Position numbers and translations under genes: made by a program. A stretch of DNA of 25,336 nucleotides from a virus. Positions within the stretch are counted from its first letter, which is position 1. Every line of letters begins with the position of its first letter. The stretch covers positions 1-25,336 of IMG/VR virus record IMGVR_UViG_3300050014_000287; one strand, given 5' to 3'. The notes beneath the pieces are model-generated. The model searched no databases. It was not told the origin of the DNA and saw only the letters and a list, made by a program, of their open reading frames with translations. Of the stretch, positions 2,107 through 17,944 are shown in pieces.

Positions 2107-2589
2107 ATGAGCTACTACGCAATCGAAGCACGTAAAGATGGGCAGCACAACACCATCACGATAGTCGGCGAGTGCAACTCGAAAGGAACTACAATCGATC
2201 GGCTTTTTGAAGATCGTCGTCTGCGGGATCTAAGCGAAGAAGAAATGCAGAAGATGACCTCCGACCTGTTGCATTCTGGAAGCGCCAGCCACGACACCAC
2301 AACATATTTTCTTGAAGAACTCACTTGCGCCGAAGCGCGGATCAAGCCTAGCCCGTCAGGCTTTGGCGAGTATTACGTCGATGGCCAAGGCGATGCGTGG
2401 GCATCGGAGGCCGATCTCCTCTGTGAGATGCGCAATGGCGATGGAACTTTGCTCGAACTCGGAAAAGATGAGCTACCCAAAGGCGTGAAAGATATTCGCG
2501 GTCATATTCACTATGAGCCCGCCCGCATTTTTGCAATCATCGACAGCGATGGCGAGTTTGAGGGCTACACCTCCATCGTCCTCCTTTAG
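2107..2589 (+). CDS. Hypothetical acidic protein, 160 aa
   Basis: I do not recognise this family. The start is set at 2107 because AGAGGAG lies just upstream (about 2093-2099), and the in-frame codons before it cover the palindrome region and look non-coding. The protein is soluble with no signal peptide or membrane segment. It is rich in Asp/Glu, starts MSYYAIEARKDGQ and ends in a hydrophobic strand, SIVLL. Its middle has the pattern GEYYVDGQGDAWASEADLL. It sits between the terminase and a SprT-like gene and has its own leader with a palindrome, so it may be an accessory gene with separate control. A small DNA-mimic or anti-defence role is conceivable from the acidity but has no direct support. 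Confidence 0.7.
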   Translation: MSYYAIEARKDGQHNTITIVGECNSKGTTIDRLFEDRRLRDLSEEEMQKMTSDLLHSGSASHDTTTYFLEELTCAEARIKPSPSGFGEYYVDGQGDAWASEADLLCEMRNGDGTLLELGKDELPKGVKDIRGHIHYEPARIFAIIDSDGEFEGYTSIVLL

Positions 2590-2628
2590 TCTCCGCCGCG
2601 CCCACCTCGGGTAAGCGTTGCGTCCCGC

Positions 2629-3330
2629 ATGGCAGCGGGGGCCGGTACGGAACCCGGCAGAAAGCCTTGGCTTGAAATGAAAGACAAGATCACAGAGCAG
2701 CAATACCTCGATTTTCAAGCGGCGTTTGATTTCTTCAACGCTCAACTCTTTGCGGACTCGCTGCCTCAAGTGCTGGTCACCTTGCAGCGTCACGCCAGGG
2801 CGCGCGGATACTTCGCCCCGGAACGCTTCCACGGGCGCGGAAATAAAGTCACCATCCATGAGATTGCGCTCAACCCCGATTGCTTCTGTGATGAGACAGA
2901 CGAGCGCATTCTTTCGACCCTGGCTCATGAGATGGCTCACCTGTGGCAGCAAGTCCACGGTCGCGCGCCGCGCCGCTGCTACCATGACCGTGAGTGGGCG
3001 GCGAAGATGAAAGCCATCGGCTTGCAGCCCACCGCAACCGGCCAGCCCGGCGGCAAAGAGACAGGTCAATCTGTCACTCACTTTGTTGTGAAGGACGGCC
3101 CCTACGCCCGCGCCTATGCCAAACTCAAGGCCAAGGGCCTCAAGCTCCGCTGGGAGTCACCCGCGCCCATGGCCGCCGAAGCCAAAGCCAAAGCGGACAG
3201 CAAGACAAAGTTTACCTGCCCATCGTGCGAACAGAATGCCTGGGCCAAGCCGGATGCCGTGCTGATCTGCGGCAACTGTTTCGAGGACGATTCCAGCGAC
3301 CCGCAAACCATGCTTGCCAATGCCGCATAA
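2629..3330 (+). CDS. SprT-like zinc metalloprotease-fold protein
   Basis: A SprT/Spartan-type fold: HEMAH (HExxH) at residues 100-104 gives two zinc ligands and the catalytic Glu, and H119 in CYHDREW is a candidate third ligand. Upstream, FDFFNAQLFADSLPQVLVTL is the usual SprT N-terminal helix and strand. A C-terminal zinc ribbon follows, with CPSC at 197-200 and CGNC at 214-217. SprT-family proteins act on DNA-bound or DNA-crosslinked proteins; the target here is unknown. The start is uncertain: ATG 2629 gives 233 aa, ATG 2677 gives a cleaner N-terminus (MKDKITEQQ) and 217 aa, and neither has a good ribosome site. A gene of this kind between terminase and portal is accessory and not a conserved virion gene. 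Confidence 0.85.
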   Translation: MAAGAGTEPGRKPWLEMKDKITEQQYLDFQAAFDFFNAQLFADSLPQVLVTLQRHARARGYFAPERFHGRGNKVTIHEIALNPDCFCDETDERILSTLAHEMAHLWQQVHGRAPRRCYHDREWAAKMKAIGLQPTATGQPGGKETGQSVTHFVVKDGPYARAYAKLKAKGLKLRWESPAPMAAEAKAKADSKTKFTCPSCEQNAWAKPDAVLICGNCFEDDSSDPQTMLANAA

Positions 3331-3333
3331 CCG

Positions 3334-3358
3334 ATAAGGCCGCGCAATGTGGCCTTAT
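3334..3358 (+). terminator. Rho-independent terminator candidate
   Basis: ATAAGGCC (3334-3341) pairs perfectly with GGCCTTAT (3351-3358) around a 9-nt loop, followed by a T/C-rich tract. It begins 4 nt after the SprT-like stop codon. It would separate the terminase/accessory segment from the portal segment unless read through or anti-terminated. Confidence 0.6.
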
Positions 3359-3399
3359 TCCTTCTAAATCTCCTCTAAATTAGCGTTGTTTTCGCAATG

Positions 3400-3424
3400 T
3401 TGCCCATAGTTAAGTTATGGGCAA
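3400..3424 (+). promoter_or_regulatory. Hairpin enclosing the start codon of the next gene
   Basis: TTGCCCATA (3400-3408) is the exact reverse complement of TATGGGCAA (3416-3424), with a 7-nt loop. The second arm contains the ATG (3417-3419) of the gpW-like gene. In mRNA this 9-bp stem would hide the start codon, and no Shine-Dalgarno sequence is visible nearby. As DNA it could instead be an operator. Confidence 0.45.
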
Positions 3425-4070: not shown

Positions 4071-5840
4071 ATGGCACACATTGAACCTATCAATCGCAGC
4101 ATCATTTCCCGGTTTCGCGGCGCTATCGACGTCTTTCTCGGCAAGCGTTCGCTCACCTCCGATTCCACGCTGGCCCAGCTCGGCGGGTCGAGCGGCTACT
4201 CCGGCTTTCAGGCTGCAAAGCAGACCCGGATGAGTGTCGATTGGCCTTCGGCCTCGCGTTCCGCCGATCAGGATCTGCAAGTCGATCTGCGTAAACTCCG
4301 CGCCCGCGCCCGCGATCAGGCCATCAACTCGCCCATTGCCTCCCGGTTTCTGGCGATGGTGCGCGCCAATGTCGCGGGCAAACATGGCGTCAAGTTGGCG
4401 TTCAAGGTTGCCCAGGTACGCAAGAGCAAAAACAGCAACGGCCTGGATGAAAAGGCAAATGAGGAGTTGCGCCGCGCGTGGCGTGAGTGGGGTAAGAAGG
4501 GTTCCTGCACCGTCTGTGGCCGCTACTCATGGCGCGAGGTGCAACGGCTCATCACAGAGAACACAGGGCGCGACGGTGAGCAGCTTATTCGCAAAGTCTA
4601 CGTGCCCAAAACCGTCAACCCGTTCGGCTTTCAAATCCAACTTATCGACGCCGATCAGCTTGACGACAATTACAACCTCATGGGCCGCGCCGATGGAACG
4701 CAGATCCGCATGGGCGTTGAGGTGGACGCTAATCAAAAGGCACTGGCCTATCACATCTTCCAGGGCAACCCTTACGAGGCATCGTTCGGCAGCTCCAACC
4801 GCGTGCGTGTTCCCGCCGATCAGATCATCCATTGGATCATCGCGCACCGCACCGGCCAGACGCGCGGCTACCCGTGGATGGCCTCCGGCATGGGCCAGTT
4901 GCGGATGCTTGACGGGTACTTCCAGGCGGAGTTAGCTGCCGCGCGCATCGGCGCTTCCATGCTTATGTCTATCGAGACCGCCAAGGACGCCGATCCCGAC
5001 GCCGATGAAATCGAAGGCGACGGAACCAACGCCGATGGTTCCAAAGCTATCGACATCGGCATCGGCAGCGCCATCGACCTCACGGGCACCGGGGCCACAC
5101 TCAACAATCACACGCCCACGCATCCGACCAACGCCTTTGACCCGTTCACAAAGCAATCGGGACGGCTGATCGCATCCGGTTTTAATGTTCCCTATCACTC
5201 GCTATTCAACGATCTAAGCGGCGTGAATTATAGCTCCGCACGTATCGGCGAGATGGAGGTACGCGAGTTTTGGATGGAGATGCAGACCTCGTTTATCGAT
5301 AACGTGGCAGAGCCTATTTACGATGCGTGGCTCGGCGCTGCTCTTCTCAATCAAGCCATCGCTCTGCCTTTTGCGGACCGCAAGCGGTTCTGCGGTGAAT
5401 TCATCAAGTGGGAGCCGCGCCGTTGGCCGTGGATTGATCCGCTCAAGGATGTGCAGGCCAACACCTTGCTCGTGCAAAACGGTTTCGAGACACACGAAAG
5501 CATCCTCAACAGCGTGGGCCGTGATCTGGAAGAAACCTACACGGAATTGGCGCGTGAACAGGAACTCGCGGACGACTTGGGCATCGCGCTTGGCACCGAT
5601 ATTCGCGGCCAGGGCACAAGCGAAATCAACAATGAAGATGAGACGCCGGAAGATGCCACCGGCGAGGCCCCAAAAGAGGAAGACGAAAAACCCACGTCGC
5701 CCGCAAAACCCGTCAGGCCAAAGGCCGGCACAAAGCCGGCCCCGGCAAAGCCGAAAGTGAAACCGGGCCGCAGTCTCACGCGCGGAATGCATCCGGCCAA
5801 TGCCGCGCTGTGGGACCTCACGAAAGAGGATGAACAATGA
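4071..5840 (+). CDS. Phage portal protein, lambda family
   Basis: Forms the dodecameric ring at the capsid vertex through which DNA enters and leaves. The N-terminal signature of the lambda gpB family is clear: W at 58, RSADQDL at 63-69, [18 protein letters not shown] at 76-93, then NVAGKHG. Further on are [27 protein letters not shown] and [11 protein letters not shown], all typical of the family. The 589-aa length is close to lambda gpB. The last 70 residues are a low-complexity Glu- then Pro/Lys/Ala-rich tail ending in [11 protein letters not shown]. The start follows AGGGAG at good spacing. The stop overlaps the next gene's ATG (ATGA), so translation of the fibre gene is coupled to portal translation, which is odd for an exported protein. 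Confidence 0.93.
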
Positions 5841-8362
5841 CACGCACACTTCGCACCCTTGCAGTGATCATAGCTTTTACTGTTCTCTGCGCCCTGATCC
5901 CTGCTCTCTGTTTTGCGCAGACGGTGACGGTCACCGCGCAGCATCTTGGGGGTACCGTTCCGTTCACGGGCATGGTATCTTGGCAGCCCACGCTCACTAA
6001 CGGCACGCCCGCCAGTGTCCAGATGTATGGCGGTGGGCAGACAACCACACCCCCACTCACCACATATGCCTCCGCTGGAGCATTCACGCTTGTCGTTCCC
6101 GCGACTGATCTGACTAACCCCGCGAACCTCTGTTTCCGCGTCACGGCGCTGCTGAAAGGCGTCAACGTGCTCGGACCCGGTTACACGTGCGTGCAGCCGC
6201 ATTACGCGGCTACTTCTTCTGGAGATTGGTGCCAGGCTGGCGTGTGCAATTTCGATAACTACATTCCCAACCTTCCCGCACAGTCGGTGGAGCAGGGTTT
6301 GAGCACCATCAACGGCCTGGCCGGCCAGTTCACTTTTCATGGTCCCGGCCTGACTCAGGCCGGAACGGACTTCTATTTTGGCGGTGGTGGCGGCGGCGGC
6401 TGGGCGTGGCTCGGCACATGGAATAGCAGCACAGCTTATGCCATCGGCGATGCAGTGGGTTATCTTGGCTCCTCCTATCTAGCCACTGCGGAAAGTACTA
6501 ACCATTCGCCAACTGACACAACTTACTGGTCTCTCCTGGCTCAGGCTGGCGCGCCGGGAGCTGCTGGCGCGATAGGTCCAGCCGGGCCAACCGGACCAAC
6601 AGGACCGACCGGGGCTACAGGTCCGCAAGGGGCAACAGGACCGACGGGGGCCTCTGGCCCAACCGGGCCGCAAGGATCGCAAGGGATTCAAGGCAACACC
6701 GGCCCGGCGGGAGCAACCGGAGCTACCGGGCCTCAAGGACCATCGGGCGGATCAACTAACTGGCGCGCAGCATGGAGCGGTTCGAACGCCTACGCCGTTT
6801 ATGATGCAGTGAGTTATAGCGGCTCATCTTATATCGCCACAGCCTCCGGAACGAATCACGAGCCGGATATCAGCCCCTCGTACTGGCAGCTACTGGCTCA
6901 GGCCGGAGCAACCGGCGCAACGGGCGCGCAAGGCTCTCAGGGCATCCAGGGAGCAACCGGTAACACCGGAGCTACGGGCGCCACAGGACCGACCGGAGCG
7001 GCTGGACCGAACTCTGTCAGCACGGCAACCACAACGTCAATGTCTTGTCTGCTCAAAGGCAACGGATCGAACGTGGCCTGTGCCGGTTCGGGCACTGATT
7101 ACGATCCGGCAGGCGCGGCCAGCACGGCACAGGCGAACGCTATCGCAGCAATTCCGGCGGCATCCTCCACCACTCCGAGCATGGACGGCACAGCGGCGAT
7201 TGGATCGAGCGCCACCTACGCCAAAGCCGATCACGTCCACCCTGCGGATACGAGCCGTCTCGCGGTCTCCGCATTCACGGCGGCGGCCATTGAGTCACTG
7301 ATCGGAGCCAGCGAATATGATGCCTACGGCGCGGCGGCCACAATCACACTGAGCGGCCTGGGCGGCGTTCCAACCACACGAACCGTCAACGGCCACGCGC
7401 TGAGCGCCAACGTGACCATCAGCGCCTCGGACCTGACCACTGGTACATTGCCTCACGGGCAGCTCCCCGCGCTCGTCTCCGGCGACATACCGGCCAACGC
7501 GGCCAACACTAGCGGCGGCGCAGCCACGGCGGCAAACTTCACCACGCCGATCACCGGCCCGGTGATGGGCAATGGCGCATCGGCTCCCAGCGCGGCCACG
7601 AGCCACAATCACAGCGTCATCGCCAACTGCATTGCGGCCAGCGGCTCCGGCACAGCGTACACCTGCTCCACGGCTCCCACATTTACTCCGGCCTCCGGTG
7701 ATCACATCCAGTTCAAGGCCGATGTGGCGAACACCGGCGCGGCCACGCTGGCGGTCAACGGTGCGTCCGCGGCCAGCATCAAGAAGTGGGGTGCAAGCAG
7801 CACGCTCGCGGCCAATGACCTCTTGGCTGGCCACTGGATCAGCGCGACCTACGACGGCACTTACTGGCAGTTGGAGGGGCAGCTCGGAAACGCCAACGCG
7901 ACGCAGGTCAACGGGGCCACGGTGCCAGCCTCGGCTAATGTTTTGGGCAGCAACTCGATCGGCCAACCAGTGGCGGCGAATGCAGCTCAGATTGCTTCAG
8001 CGATGGCTGGTCAGCGGCCTTTCCTTTGTCAGCCGGGAGGCATCGGCGACGGTCTGAACGCTATCACGGCGGGAACCTATCCCATGGTGGCGTGCAAGAA
8101 CACGACTGGCGTTACGGTGACGCTAAGTGGTGTGTCCTGCTACTCGAACAATGCCGGGTCTACGACGCTGGCAATCGCCGACTACAACTCTTCGGGAACA
8201 CTGGTGGGCACCGTGGCCGCTGCATTCACCTGTGCGAATCCTTACGCGAACGGAACATTCGGGAGCCAAACCACAATGTCCTCCGGAGACTATCTTCTCT
8301 TCACGATGGTGGCAGACGGCACGACGAAAACAACCTCATACGAGATTCACGGAGTCTACTAA
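5837..8362 (+). CDS. Collagen-like tail fibre/adhesin with signal peptide
   Basis: 841 aa. Residues 1-27 form a Sec-type signal peptide (basic start, hydrophobic core, ALCFA before Q28). A Cys-containing beta region follows (28-180). Then come two aromatic modules of about 49 residues (189-237 and 308-356) with the pattern W..Y..GDAV.Y.GSSY.AT...TN..P...YW, like CBM5/12 chitin-binding modules. They alternate with collagen repeats: 22 Gly-X-Y triplets at 238-303 and 11 at 357-389. [14 protein letters not shown] at 461-474 is a phage fibre stalk motif, and a VNG...IKKWG / [12 protein letters not shown] segment is also common in fibres. The likely role is host or surface binding. The position between portal and protease is not the usual fibre site. 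GAGGA precedes the start. Confidence 0.8.
6740..6863 (+). repeat. Fibre module repeat, copy 1
   Basis: The DNA coding for the end of the first collagen run and the second aromatic module of the fibre. The first 28 bases (6740-6767) are identical to 25173-25200. After one mismatch a further 12 match, followed by a diverged but clearly homologous stretch. This is a substrate for recombination between the two fibre genes. Confidence 0.75.
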
Positions 8363-12344: not shown

Positions 12345-12731
12345 ATGAGCAAGAGTGTAAATTCCGTAACATTGCTGGGCAACGTAGGCCAGCCGCCGGA
12401 ATCGAAGCAATCGCAAAACGGAACATTGCGGACGACGGTCTCCATTGCGACCAACGAACGGAAAAAAGTTCCCAACACTGACAAGTGGGAAGATCACACC
12501 GAGTGGCATTCGGTGATCTTCTTTGGCCGCCTGGCTGAAATCGCCCGCGACTATATCCGCAAAGGCTCCAAGGTCTATATCTCCGGCCGCCTCCGCACCA
12601 TCACCTGGGAAGACGACACCCAGCAGAAACGCTGGAAAACCAACATCGTTGCCGAGGAGCTTGTCTTGCTCGACGGCAAAGACTCCACCCCTGCCAAAGT
12701 TCCCGATGAAGCGTACGGCGAGGCGTTCTGA
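12345..12731 (+). CDS. ssb: Single-stranded DNA-binding protein (SSB), OB fold
   Basis: 128 aa. The SSB signature is clear: NSVTLLGNVGQPPES at 6-20, TTVSIATNER at 30-39, WEDHTEWHSVIFFGRLAEIA at 48-67 (W54, F59 and F60 in the base-stacking positions), then YIRKGSKVYISGRLRTITWE and KTNIVAEELVLLDG. The C-terminal tail is only 18 residues and ends DEAYGEAF, a weak version of the acidic tip ending in Phe that recruits partner proteins. SSB coats single-stranded DNA in replication and recombination, so its presence among head-tail genes is unusual. The start has GAGGGA upstream. The stop overlaps the next ATG (TGATG), tying it to late tail expression. Confidence 0.93.
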   Translation: MSKSVNSVTLLGNVGQPPESKQSQNGTLRTTVSIATNERKKVPNTDKWEDHTEWHSVIFFGRLAEIARDYIRKGSKVYISGRLRTITWEDDTQQKRWKTNIVAEELVLLDGKDSTPAKVPDEAYGEAF

Positions 12732-13198: not shown

Positions 13199-13942
13199 AT
13201 GGCTTTGCTTGCGCCAACAGTAACCGTAACCCCGGCACCTACTACCGTCACCGCAGTGCAGGCGGTTGCGGTCACTGTTGCCGTTACCGGCTCCGGCGCC
13301 ACGCCCACCGGCTCCGTGAAAATAACCAGCGGCGCTTTCACGTCCGCCGCCACGCCTTTGGTGGCTGGCTCCGCAGTCATCGCCATTCCGCCCGGCGCAT
13401 TGGCCGTGGGCATCAACGCGCTGGCCACCGCCTACACTCCGGATGTGAACAGCGATGCCGTGTACACCGCAGGCACTGGCACAGCCAACGTGACGGTAAC
13501 CGCCGTCGCCGTTACGCCCTGCAAGTTGCAAGGCTATGTGGCCCAGCTTGGCTACGTTCCGGCCGCCGGTGGGGCCATGCAAATTCTTGCCGGTCTCAAA
13601 GACCTTGACGGCGAGTTCAAGGCGGATGAGTTGGATTCGAGCGACCATAGCGGATCGTGGAAGGGTCGCATGTTGGGGATGCTCGATTTCACCGCTACCG
13701 CCAAGCTCGATTACATCGCTGGCGATTCCGGTCAGGAAGGATTCTTGCAGGCGCTCATCAACCGCACCCCACTGCAAATCTATCTCTTTCCGAAGCAGGG
13801 CGCTGGCTCTGGAGTCGATCAGTACGCGGGCACCGTGGTCATTCCCAGTTACAAGTGGTCTGGCAAGATGAAGGATTTGCAGGACGCCACCTTCAGCCTC
13901 GCTAACGCCGCGAACACCGGGTTTGCGGTCTCCGCGCAGTAA
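13199..13942 (+). CDS. Major tail tube protein with N-terminal Ig-like domain
   Basis: 247 aa. Residues 5-104 look like a bacterial Ig-like domain: PTVTVTPAPTTVTAVQAVAV, GSGATPTGSVKITSG, a G-rich turn and a closing ANVTVTAV strand. Residues 110-247 fit a tail tube protein: QLGYVPAAGGAMQILAGLKD, the WKGRMLGMLDFTATAKLDYIA strand-helix unit, LINRTPLQIYLFPKQG, and the ending WSGKMKDLQDATFSLANAANTGF. In lambda gpV the Ig-like domain is at the C-terminus; here it is at the N-terminus. Such domains stud the tail surface and are thought to bind cell surface sugars weakly. GGAGG lies 9 nt before the ATG. A strong terminator follows the gene. Confidence 0.8.
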   Translation: MALLAPTVTVTPAPTTVTAVQAVAVTVAVTGSGATPTGSVKITSGAFTSAATPLVAGSAVIAIPPGALAVGINALATAYTPDVNSDAVYTAGTGTANVTVTAVAVTPCKLQGYVAQLGYVPAAGGAMQILAGLKDLDGEFKADELDSSDHSGSWKGRMLGMLDFTATAKLDYIAGDSGQEGFLQALINRTPLQIYLFPKQGAGSGVDQYAGTVVIPSYKWSGKMKDLQDATFSLANAANTGFAVSAQ

Positions 13943-14032: not shown

Positions 14033-14070
14033 AGGGCCAGCCGCCTTGTAACCGGCTGGCCCTCTTTTTT
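14033..14070 (+). terminator. Strong Rho-independent terminator after the tail tube gene
   Basis: AGGGCCAGCCG (14033-14043) pairs perfectly with CGGCTGGCCCT (14053-14063), an 11-bp GC-rich stem with a 9-nt loop, followed by C and six Ts (14065-14070). It would cut transcription between the highly expressed tube gene and the low-copy chaperone and tape measure genes. Confidence 0.9.
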
Positions 14071-14090
14071 ACACAGAAAGTTGAGGAATT

Positions 14091-14486
14091 ATGGGAACCG
14101 TAGTGATCTTCAAAAAGCCAATCTTTGTTGACTTCGACCGCCGCCGCGAGGTGGTTTTCAATTTGAACACCGAGATTCTCATCCGCAACGCCGGCGGAAA
14201 GGATAGCTCGTTGTGGGACACCATTGGTGAGACCAAGGATGAGGCCACCGGCCAGATCAGCCGAACCCTCGATGTGAATGTCGAGAACCTGCGCCTGTAC
14301 CTCTGGGCGGCGCTCCAGGGGGATGCCAGGGCGCGCGGTGAGGCTCTGACGATAGAAGATGTGGGCGCGCTGCTCTCGCGCCGCAAATGGGTCATTCCAG
14401 CCGTCCGGGCCATCAGCGAGGCGCTCAACCAATACTACGGAGATGAGCCCGCGGGGGAAACACCCGCCCCAGCCGTAAGCGTGTAA
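14091..14486 (+). CDS. Tail assembly chaperone, G-like
   Basis: 131 aa, starting after TGAGGA at good spacing. It sits between tail tube and tape measure, the G position. It has an N-terminal beta part (VVIFKKPIFVDFDRRREVVFNL), a middle with DVNVENLRLYLWAALQGDARA and a helical C-terminal part (TIEDVGALLSRRKWVIPAVRAISEALNQYYG), then a Pro/Ala tail. This fits tail assembly chaperones that coat the tape measure protein while the tube polymerises. The tail after residue 120 is encoded over a GGGGGAA run and a stem-loop, and the -1 frame is open there, so a fraction of ribosomes probably continues into the T-like frame as lambda G does into GT. Confidence 0.75.
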   Translation: MGTVVIFKKPIFVDFDRRREVVFNLNTEILIRNAGGKDSSLWDTIGETKDEATGQISRTLDVNVENLRLYLWAALQGDARARGEALTIEDVGALLSRRKWVIPAVRAISEALNQYYGDEPAGETPAPAVSV

Positions 14487-14869
14487 GCTCGGGGCGCACA
14501 ACACGCAAAAAGGTCTCACTATGGACATGGGAAGATGCTTTCCGCATGGTCTGCGGTGAGATGGGCCTCGCACCCTCTGAATTCTATCGGCTGCTCTACT
14601 CGGAGTTGAGCCTCATCCTTGAGGGCTACCATGCGCGCCACAAGCGCGAACAGCGCGAACGCCGCGAGGAGTCCGCGTGGATGGTGAGCTGGCTGCTCAT
14701 CCCGCACAGGAAAGCCGATGCCGATCCCATCACGCCCGATCAACTCATGGGCCGCAAACCGCGCGGCAAGCCCGCGCCAGCGTTCGCCAATGACGAAGCC
14801 AAGGCACGTGCGCTGGTTACCGCTTTTGCTGCACAATCGAAGAAGAAGAGGTTGACTGATGGCAAGTAA
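14447..14869 (+). CDS. Tail assembly chaperone, T-like part made by -1 frameshift
   Basis: The frame is open from 14447 (just after a TGA at 14444) to the stop at 14867-14869. The first Met in it is 14546, but the conserved-looking core starts earlier: SLWTWEDAFRMVCGEMGLAP, then SEFYRLLYSELSLILEGYHA and a basic helix, so a start at 14546 would cut the domain. A -1 shift at 14453-14459 would give a G-T fusion of about 259 aa (123 residues of G plus 136). The C-terminal half is charged and ends AAQSKKKRLTDGK. The stop overlaps the tape measure ATG (14859). In lambda the T part binds the tape measure or tube subunits. Independent initiation at 14546 with GGGAAG upstream is the alternative. Confidence 0.7.
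   Translation, partial: ARGGNTRPSRKRVSSGRTTRKKVSLWTWEDAFRMVCGEMGLAPSEFYRLLYSELSLILEGYHARHKREQRERREESAWMVSWLLIPHRKADADPITPDQLMGRKPRGKPAPAFANDEAKARALVTAFAAQSKKKRLTDGK
14453..14506 (+). promoter_or_regulatory. Programmed -1 ribosomal frameshift signal (candidate)
   Basis: A GGGGGAA heptamer (14453-14459) is read G GGG GAA in the G frame. A 5-nt spacer follows, then a stem of CGCCCCAGC (14465-14473) with GCT, a bulged C and GGGGCG (14487-14496). The G stop codon is in the loop. Loop bases GCGTGT (14479-14484) are also exactly complementary to ACACGC (14501-14506), so a pseudoknot is possible, though the 4-nt connecting loop is short for it. The GGG codon re-pairs perfectly after slipping; GAA to GGA has a middle mismatch, so the site is not a perfect X XXY YYZ. 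Confidence 0.65.
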
Positions 14870-16979
14870 GGGCGGCGTGATCGTTGTCGTATCCGGCGAA
14901 GACAAAACCGGCGAAGTCTTCGCCGCAGTCAAAAAGCATTTGGACGAAACCCAGGCCGCCGCCAAGTCCACTTCGGAATCCCTCGGCAACATCGGCAAGA
15001 TACTCCAAAGCGGCCTCCAGACGGCGGGTATTGCCATCGGCATCGCTGCCATAGTGCAAGGTTTTAAATCGATGGTCACCTCCACCATGGAGGCCGGTGT
15101 CCAGCTTGCTCACCTGAATCAGCAGACTGGCATTTCCGTTGAAAACCTCTCCATCCTCAAATATGCTGCGCAATCGACCGGCGTTGACTTTGATACCCTC
15201 ACGCGTGGCTTCAAGAAACTCGCGGTCACTGCCTATGAGGCCGATAACGGGAACAAAACAGCAGCCAAAGGCTTTGCACAGCTCGGCATCTCCACCGAGC
15301 AACTCCGCGCCAAGGGTGATGATATGTATGGCGTTCTGACTCTGATCGCCGACAAATTCCACGCCATGCCCGACGGAATCAATAAGAGCGACACAGCCGC
15401 CAAAATCTTCGGCGCCCGCATGGGCTCTGAGATGATCCCCGTCCTTGATGCTCTCGGCGGCAAGATGGACTCAGTGAAAGCCGAGGCCCAGGCACTCGGC
15501 ATCGTGTGGGATGAAGCGGGAATCCAAAAGATGGAGGAGATGCATAAGACCTCCGCTAAACTTCAAGGCGCGCTACAGGGACTTGGCTTATCTCTTATCT
15601 CCGACCTCGCGACACCCCTTGAAACTGTCATTGTCGATCTGACAACCGCTATTACAAAAATGCAAACATTGATGGATATAGGTGGAAATATCCATAAGGC
15701 TAAGCAGGGCGATCAAGCTGCCACCACAATGGCATCGCTTCCCCTTGAATTGAGAGGCTTTTCCAATCCAGATAAAACCATGCATGATGCGGCAGCTCAA
15801 AAGGGTGCTCTAGAGGCCCAATTGAGAGCCGCAGGACTTTCAGAGGCAAAGAAAGCTGAGCTACAAAAGCAATGGCATGACGCGGATCTGCGCGAAAATG
15901 CCGCCTATTTCCAGAAGTCCACCGATCAGGTTTCTGCCGCCTATACCGCAAGAGAAAAGTTTGTAAAAGGTGATCCGAATGATCACAGGGGCCGTGTGGC
16001 CTTTTTGGCTGACGATAAGAAAACGACCGACAATCTCACAAATAGTCTTGCACAGCAAGCAGCGGCAATGTCGCGTCTAAACGATGCAATGAAGACTACT
16101 TCAAAGACGTCTTCGTCATCCGGTGGCGGCGGAGGTGCGCACAGCGGCTCTAGAGGCGGTGCAGCCGGCGGGGATGGACTGGTTGTCGTTCCGTGGTCAG
16201 AGACCGCGTTGCAATCACAGATGGATGCCGCGCAACACTTGTTGGATGAGGCTCAAACAAAACGAAAGGAGTTGTTTGATGAGGCTGCGGCTCGGGCTGC
16301 GGCGGATGGCCAGGCGGCGTGGGACAAGATGAACGCCACGGATCTATCGTCCGCCGGACAGGGACTCTTTGGTCCCGCTAAACTACCAAAGGCTACGCTG
16401 GCGCCACAGGCGGCCGATCATAATGCAATTGATGGTGAGGCGGAAAAGTTTGCTCACGGTGTCTTCGATCCGCTCTTTGACTTGGGCGAAAAATGGGACA
16501 AGCAATGGAAGCAAATCCGCACCAACATGCTCAAGGACATTGGGCAGACGGCGGAGTCTCAACTTTTCAAGGGATTGTTCGGGGATAGCACCGGACGCGG
16601 CGGCAAGGGCTGGGATGGTAGCGGAGGCCGAAAGGGCGTATCGGGAACTGGGGGAGCGGTAGGAGCGGGACTTTCGTCACTGGAGGGGCTGTTTCACAAG
16701 AAGTCCAGCCCGGTATCGAATGGGACGGGAGCCACCGGCGCGGGAACGGTGCTCAGTTCGGTTGCGAGCTCACTACAGGCAGGTAAGGCGGCGGGTGCGG
16801 GTGCGGGCGGCGTGCAAGTGATCATCAACAACACGGGCACGCCGCAACAGGTCGATTCCACGCTCCAGTCCGGCGGCGGTGCCGATCCTGAGCAGATGGT
16901 GATTCAGATCATGACGAAAGATTTGAACACCCATGGCCCAATGTCACAAGGAATTCTTGGGCTGCTCTCGATGGCTTAA
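14859..16979 (+). CDS. Tail length tape measure protein
   Basis: 706 aa, mostly helical, in the lambda H position. The N-terminal half has the usual features: VFAAVKKHLDETQAAAKST, a hydrophobic segment (GLQTAGIAIGIAAIVQGFK, residues 50-68), then QLAHLNQQTGISVENLSILKYAAQ and FKKLAVTAYEADNG, a pattern found in many tape measures. A second hydrophobic stretch is near residues 243-265. The middle holds charged helices, and the C-terminal third is Gly/Ser/Ala-rich with GGVQVIINNTGTPQQV near the end. At about 0.15 nm per residue a tail near 100 nm would be expected if the whole chain is used. The ATG overlaps the T-like stop. The stop overlaps that of the facing minus-strand gene. Confidence 0.88.
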   Translation: MASKGGVIVVVSGEDKTGEVFAAVKKHLDETQAAAKSTSESLGNIGKILQSGLQTAGIAIGIAAIVQGFKSMVTSTMEAGVQLAHLNQQTGISVENLSILKYAAQSTGVDFDTLTRGFKKLAVTAYEADNGNKTAAKGFAQLGISTEQLRAKGDDMYGVLTLIADKFHAMPDGINKSDTAAKIFGARMGSEMIPVLDALGGKMDSVKAEAQALGIVWDEAGIQKMEEMHKTSAKLQGALQGLGLSLISDLATPLETVIVDLTTAITKMQTLMDIGGNIHKAKQGDQAATTMASLPLELRGFSNPDKTMHDAAAQKGALEAQLRAAGLSEAKKAELQKQWHDADLRENAAYFQKSTDQVSAAYTAREKFVKGDPNDHRGRVAFLADDKKTTDNLTNSLAQQAAAMSRLNDAMKTTSKTSSSSGGGGGAHSGSRGGAAGGDGLVVVPWSETALQSQMDAAQHLLDEAQTKRKELFDEAAARAAADGQAAWDKMNATDLSSAGQGLFGPAKLPKATLAPQAADHNAIDGEAEKFAHGVFDPLFDLGEKWDKQWKQIRTNMLKDIGQTAESQLFKGLFGDSTGRGGKGWDGSGGRKGVSGTGGAVGAGLSSLEGLFHKKSSPVSNGTGATGAGTVLSSVASSLQAGKAAGAGAGGVQVIINNTGTPQQVDSTLQSGGGADPEQMVIQIMTKDLNTHGPMSQGILGLLSMA

Positions 16980-17944
16980 ATCTGAGGGATGAGTTGGAAT
17001 GAATCCAGAAAGCGTAAAGCATCGGGATATGGTTGCCCTATTCTCGATACCACTGCTGTTTTATAGAACTTGGTGCCGACTAAATAGAAGCGGGCAGAAT
17101 AGTGGCCTATAGCGCTCTCTGCCTCAAACTCGATACCAGAGTGAGTGCCGAGTATGATTTTTTTCTCACTGAGAAGATGTGACGTGGAAGCCGTTAGAAA
17201 GCCATCTTTTACACGTTGCAACTCAGCATCAGAATCTAAGCCTCCAATTCCGCGATCATCCATCGTGACGAACATTCCTGTTTGACCATCCTGTGCAAAA
17301 TATAGGCGTAATTCAACGGTTCCCGTAGGCGTTGGAACATTATTTTTTGTTAAATGTGGCTCAGAGGGGCAGGAAACACTAAACCCATCAGAGGGATAAC
17401 TGTAAGTTTTAAACTGCGCGGCTTGCGTGGCAGCAAGCGGAATAGGCTGTTCGCTGGGCTGCAAAACTCCGACGATGGAATAAGTCTCGCTCTCTGTTAC
17501 TCCGGTACCATCGAGGCTCGGTGCTTGCATGGATAATTTTACTTGGCTGTGTTTGAATGTTGCATATATTGTGTCGTTTGGCCAAGGTCTCCTGCAATCA
17601 CGATAGACGGTAGATGCTCGATTATCCGCTAATGCGTTGGCTATATTGGCAGATATGTTAGCCTTCGCCACGCATTGTGCTATCACGATGCGTCCGTCCG
17701 GTAAAAGAAGTTTCAACGTTGCCCCTGTTATACTCACCGTGCCAGAGTCAGGAAGTGTCCAATGAGAAGTACACCCCGTGCTGTAGCAGTATGTGCTATC
17801 TTTCCCCTCAACTTCCCAATTATAAGAAGAGGTCATCGGAACATTTTCTATTATGGTAACTTTGATCTTTTTACTGTCTTCGGTCCATGCAAAGGCAGCG
17901 GAAAGGGAAAAGCAGAGAACGAGCGCGAGAAGCAGTCTGCGCAT
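16976..17944 (-). CDS. Predicted secreted accessory protein (moron)
   Basis: 322 aa. A signal peptide covers residues 1-19 (MRRLLLALVLCFSLSAAFA). The first mature part (20-165) has Cys at 53, 58, 91 and 117 and the string LKLLLPDGRIVIAQC, then DNRASTVYRDCRRP and ESETYSIVGVLQP. I associate this layout with secreted proteins of Acidobacteriota; that is from memory and unchecked. A second domain (180-322) starts YSYPSDGFSVSCP and ends ALRFLDSFQLIPQI, similar in layout to PsbP/DUF1795-type lipid- or surface-associated domains. The gene is on the opposite strand to the tail operon, more AT-rich than its neighbours, and has its own GGAGGT and a TATACT box. This suits a moron expressed from a prophage and acting in the envelope or outside the cell. 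Confidence 0.75.
   Translation of the reverse strand: MRRLLLALVLCFSLSAAFAWTEDSKKIKVTIIENVPMTSSYNWEVEGKDSTYCYSTGCTSHWTLPDSGTVSITGATLKLLLPDGRIVIAQCVAKANISANIANALADNRASTVYRDCRRPWPNDTIYATFKHSQVKLSMQAPSLDGTGVTESETYSIVGVLQPSEQPIPLAATQAAQFKTYSYPSDGFSVSCPSEPHLTKNNVPTPTGTVELRLYFAQDGQTGMFVTMDDRGIGGLDSDAELQRVKDGFLTASTSHLLSEKKIILGTHSGIEFEAESAIGHYSARFYLVGTKFYKTAVVSRIGQPYPDALRFLDSFQLIPQI

Follow-up and report, generated by a model that had tools for sequence, protein, structure and literature searches.

In IMG/VR virus record IMGVR_UViG_3300050014_000287, a putative tail chaperone gene, here called G, overlaps a second open frame, T, that lies in the -1 register, which raises the question of how the T protein is made. 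Comparison of this junction with those of related phages indicates that, very probably, a lambda G/GT-like -1 programmed ribosomal frameshift joins the two tail chaperones. The window, meaning the whole stretch of DNA that was analysed (25,336 bases), carries the structural module of a long-tailed phage, with genes for a large terminase, a portal, a capsid protein with a protease-like part, a tape measure and a lambda J-like central fibre.

The G/T pair is located between the gene for a probable major tail protein (13199-13942, assigned by position and without a PHROG match) and the tape measure gene (14859-16979), which adjoins it downstream. The N-terminus of the probable major tail protein includes an Ig-like stretch (Pfam Big_3_5, scoring under the cut-off). 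Elsewhere in the module, a gene for a single-strand DNA binding protein (12345-12731) is placed between head and tail genes, as it is in relatives; a collagen-like fibre gene with a carbohydrate-binding module (5837-8362) sits between the portal and capsid genes; and a lone minus-strand ORF of 322 aa (16976-17944), without a PHROG match, follows the tape measure gene. Between the tail protein gene and G, positions 14033-14071 hold a strong hairpin followed by six T (z -3.95) that resembles an intrinsic terminator and may lower chaperone expression; similar hairpins occur upstream of G in relative L030. A search of the window against Rfam gave no match.

A second chaperone frame under selection

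Gene G occupies the zero frame of the plus strand from 14091 to 14486, including its TAA stop (14484-14486). Its short product of 131 aa is assigned as a tail assembly chaperone from its place upstream of the tape measure gene and from weak matches to phrog_2115 'tail protein' in 11 of 13 aligned members (best E 3e-4). The T extension is open on the same strand, in the -1 frame, from 14447, directly behind a TGA (14444-14446), to 14869; it overlaps G by 40 nt and has its core at 14522-14866. Matches to Pfam family Phage_TAC_6 (PF09550) were found for 11 of 15 members at E up to 0.1 (best 1.3e-4), with the window's own T scoring 15.4-15.8 bits, below the curated cut-off of 23.4. A sequence search of the PDB turned up nothing credibly related to G or T, and a search of annotated phages returned no relative for G and two weak matches for T.

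When the T core is compared with its relatives, third codon positions differ most, and we therefore take T to be a real protein under purifying selection. Its frame contains no ATG, GTG or TTG before the ATG at 14546, which is already inside the WTWEDAFRMVCGE core. The earlier proposal that the T-like core begins before any Met of its frame thus holds, and the coordinates first given for the opening of the -1 frame at 14447, and for the heptamer, spacer, stem and loop complement discussed below were correct to the base.

A slippery heptamer conserved in register

The overlap contains the heptamer G GGG GAA (14453-14459, plus strand), read in the window as GCG GGG GAA ACA. The GGGGGAA string is not rare in the window (three occurrences, compared with 3.8 expected by chance), and within the main ORFs (6,968 codon positions) this is the sole in-register case. 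It departs from the canonical X XXY YYZ pattern in that the move from GAA to GGA would leave a G:U at the second position of the codon. An overlapping site that does fit the canonical pattern, GGGAAAC (14455-14461), was rejected on reading the frames, as its register is wrong for a shift from G to T. A Shine-Dalgarno-like GGAG (14440-14443) precedes the heptamer but is not kept in relatives, which have GGT, GGC or GGG.

Searches with G and T recovered 30 IMG/VR contigs having both genes. A host search covering about 790 genomes, sampled from the phylum and order that include locus L039, gave two loci: L039 itself, in an Acidobacteria MAG, and L100, in a genome from the same order. These two genome loci suggest a link between the lineage and Acidobacteriota hosts. 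T lies in the -1 frame of G in 21 of the IMG/VR contigs and in both genome loci, which together with the window make up 18 distinct junctions. A separate search with a DNA pattern around the heptamer added eight contigs, all of them unrelated chance matches.

Alignment of the homologous junctions, which the initial annotation had put forward as a check, bears out a conserved GGGGGAA: the heptamer is kept in the register xxG GGG GAA in 17 of the 18, and the remaining one, L012, has GGGGGAC. The sequence flanking it varies freely. Judged from codon use in the window, a kept Gly-Glu pair would be written xxG GGG GAA only about 1.1% of the time.

The shortest overlaps are the most informative about where the shift would occur. 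The stop of G directly follows GGGGGAA in five junctions. In four of these (relatives L005, L007, L016 and L028), TAG is the stop right behind the heptamer, the T frame opens 3-6 nt ahead of the heptamer, and the two frames share an open stretch of only 13-16 nt, locating the slip at GGG GAA. This stretch is 13 nt including the stop in L016 and L028, whose sites are GGGGGAATAG; there the zero frame reads GAG CCG GGG GAA TAG, the -1 frame reads TGA GCC GGG GGA ATA, and GGG is the only codon able to re-pair perfectly one base back. At the other extreme, the GGGGGAC relative has an 82-nt overlap (L012:3351-3432) with two further G runs, and its slip site is therefore uncertain. This junction counts against frameshifting, as the Glu re-pairing described above does not apply to GGGGGAC.

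A stem-loop at a nearly constant distance

Folding predicts a stimulatory stem-loop at 14465-14496 of the plus strand, separated from the heptamer by a 5-nt spacer (14460-14464). Positions 14465-14473 pair with 14487-14489 and 14491-14496 to give 9 bp, with C14490 bulged. All 18 junctions have a stem that starts, with its 5' arm, 5-6 nt past the heptamer; the spacer is 5-6 nt in the 17 measured, and L100 folds with a spacer of 5. Folding energies over the junctions average about two standard deviations below those of dinucleotide shuffles, and are strongest in L014, L038, L008 and L039. In the window itself, the stem does not surpass its shuffles in strength (z -0.6 to -1.1). The stem-position test is lax for any one sequence, with 13-55% of shuffles passing, and the case for the stem therefore rests on its presence in 18 of 18 junctions across diverged lineages. 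Taken alone, neither the heptamer nor the stem of the window exceeds chance; it is conservation in relatives that makes the signal convincing.

Compensatory changes in the stem, which were also proposed as a check, are seen to a slight degree: the short-overlap group has C-G/G-C and G-C/A-U changes, and this covariation stays within the shuffle range. MAFFT alignment of all junctions followed by RNAalifold gave only three pairs, because stem lengths and loops vary between lineages.

The initial annotation further described a possible pseudoknot, in which loop bases GCGTGT (14479-14484) would pair with ACACGC (14501-14506), also on the plus strand. This 6-bp complementarity is indeed exact in the window (P about 0.04), and the second stem is in register in only five of the 18 junctions, namely the window, L002, L011, L014 and L031. 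L012 has a different 6-bp match farther downstream, and the remaining junctions reach at most 4 bp. Within the window's group, one pair of stem 2 covaries (U-A to C-G), which is not significant against shuffles. A pseudoknot general to the family is rejected, since most relatives lack it; at best, it is a lineage-limited element that may form in the window and four relatives.

How the shift would proceed

The locus combines overlapping ORFs, a conserved slippery site in register and a T frame that is startless and selected, which are the features of a lambda G/GT-type -1 frameshift. According to this model, most ribosomes would complete G. While tRNA-Gly occupies GGG and tRNA-Glu occupies GAA (14454-14459), the stem-loop would hold the ribosome from 5 nt ahead, and a minority of ribosomes would slip back one base. 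Gly would then re-pair perfectly (GGG to GGG), and Glu would re-pair on GGA with the G:U in the middle. Translation would resume in the -1 frame at AAC ACC CGC to yield a fused G-T protein of about 259 aa, with the junction product AISEALNQYYGDEPAGENTRPSR if both tRNAs slip or AISEALNQYYGDEPAGGNTRPSR if the slip is confined to the P site. By analogy with lambda, G would coat the tape measure protein, and G-T, as the rarer form, would recruit the tail-tube subunit. We infer the slippage itself, its efficiency, a two-tRNA slip in preference to a P-site-only one, and the chaperone roles.

Other routes to the T protein

T could instead be a separate gene, translated from the ATG at 14546 or by termination-reinitiation at the stop of G. 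The two genes are adjacent, the ATG is in frame, and in the short-overlap group an ATA overlaps the TAG stop. However, a start at 14546 would lose the first half of the conserved WEDAF.VCGE motif, in which this ATG is embedded, and relatives have ATC, ATT, GTG or no start-like codon at the same place. Between heptamer and core, the T frame contains no ATG, GTG or TTG in 17 of the 18 junctions (L100 has a GTG). Neither start accounts for the invariant heptamer, and we regard a separate T gene as very unlikely. A combination that would speak against frameshifting, namely a separate T start in relatives without the slippery run, was sought among the -1-type relatives and was not found.

Still less probable is transcriptional slippage, in which one G added to the five-G run in some messages would yield the same -1 frame. 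Runs usually held to undergo such slippage are longer than five G. Furthermore, both A residues that follow the run show the same constancy as its G residues (17 of 18), and the stem lies 5-6 nt downstream; both features fit decoding by the ribosome rather than slippage by polymerase. An error of sequencing or assembly in a continuous gene, which the G run at the break and the single frame of a sister group might suggest, is for practical purposes refuted: the break is common to 21 IMG/VR contigs and two genome loci with differing surrounding sequences, and the in-frame group has a different linker and no G run.

Programmed frameshifting, the mechanism that was originally proposed for this locus, is thereby the favoured account, being supported by the conserved heptamer, the conserved position of the stem and the lack of a separate T start.

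A sister clade with a fused chaperone

Nine contigs (L021-L027, L030 and L059) encode G and T as one in-frame ORF, which has about 250 aa where measured and a linker resembling GGAAQAxxxPAKSKRAARKQTTWEDAF. As this sister clade makes the same G-T from one ORF, the fusion is the working form of the protein. In the G tree the fused contigs form one clade (100/100) placed among frameshifting relatives, with weak joining forks. L059 stands apart from the other fused contigs in the T tree, its T being of another origin, and T modules have therefore probably been exchanged.

Six fused records (L021, L022, L025, L027, L030 and L059, possibly fragments), with their fused loci at about 2500-3410, were searched for a second copy of G or T, and each gave exactly one match to G and one to T. 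The T4-like solution of a second G copy was thus absent from these six. A hidden reverse frameshift that would make short G was also rejected, as the fused clade has no conserved run or heptamer, and out-of-frame stops lie at scattered distances.

Judging by the fused clade, some of these phages do not encode short G, a point that weighs against the frameshift model. It is possible, though we think it doubtful, that the tail-chaperone frameshift was lost outright in this clade, leaving a single in-frame G-T with neither a separate G nor a visible slippery site. If so, these phages would build their tails independently of the ratio of G to G-T required in lambda, or would make short G another way, for example by proteolysis. 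The clade offers a natural comparison for asking why so many phages retain a frameshift at their tail chaperones.

Comparison with known recoding systems

Frameshifting by -1 between tail chaperones is widely conserved in long-tailed phages (PMC5009743). As in lambda G/GT, the window has two chaperone genes that overlap ahead of the tape measure gene, a predicted -1 shift near the end of the first gene and a predicted minor fusion product; unlike lambda, its family has GGGGGAA in place of lambda's heptamer, and a stem 5-6 nt downstream.

The initial annotation had considered G GGG GAA an unusual site, whereas it is a recognised tail-chaperone motif (PMC10885494, PMC5506516). GGGGGAA makes up all of about a thousand 'fivetwo' sites predicted with PRFect in the SEA-PHAGES set, and the authors of that study already noted the G:U re-pairing of the second tRNA (PMC10885494). 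A GGGGGAA frameshift with an H-type pseudoknot was predicted in corynephage phi16 (PMC5506516), and on inspection its record has GGGGGAA in the register GTG GGG GAA, followed by GAC TAA. The window thus shares its heptamer with the actinobacteriophage 'fivetwo' sites and phi16, and its register with phi16. It differs from them in lineage, and in that the stem is general here while a pseudoknot is possible in some relatives only.

T4-like phages have one short and one fused copy of the chaperone (PMC10885494). The fused clade shares the one-frame fusion, but has one G and one T match per record, without the short copy. The tape measure chaperone of Bacillus phage Silence (KT001912) gives a weak match to the T domain (30% identity, E 0.1); its CDS is annotated as joined and frameshifted, and its junction is without GGGGGAA.

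The frameshift of the window is therefore a well-supported, ordinary example of known tail-chaperone recoding, and it extends GGGGGAA frameshifting at tail chaperones to a phage lineage linked to Acidobacteriota. The comparative evidence is unusually clean, in that 13-nt two-frame overlaps in relatives would map the slip to GGG GAA from sequence.
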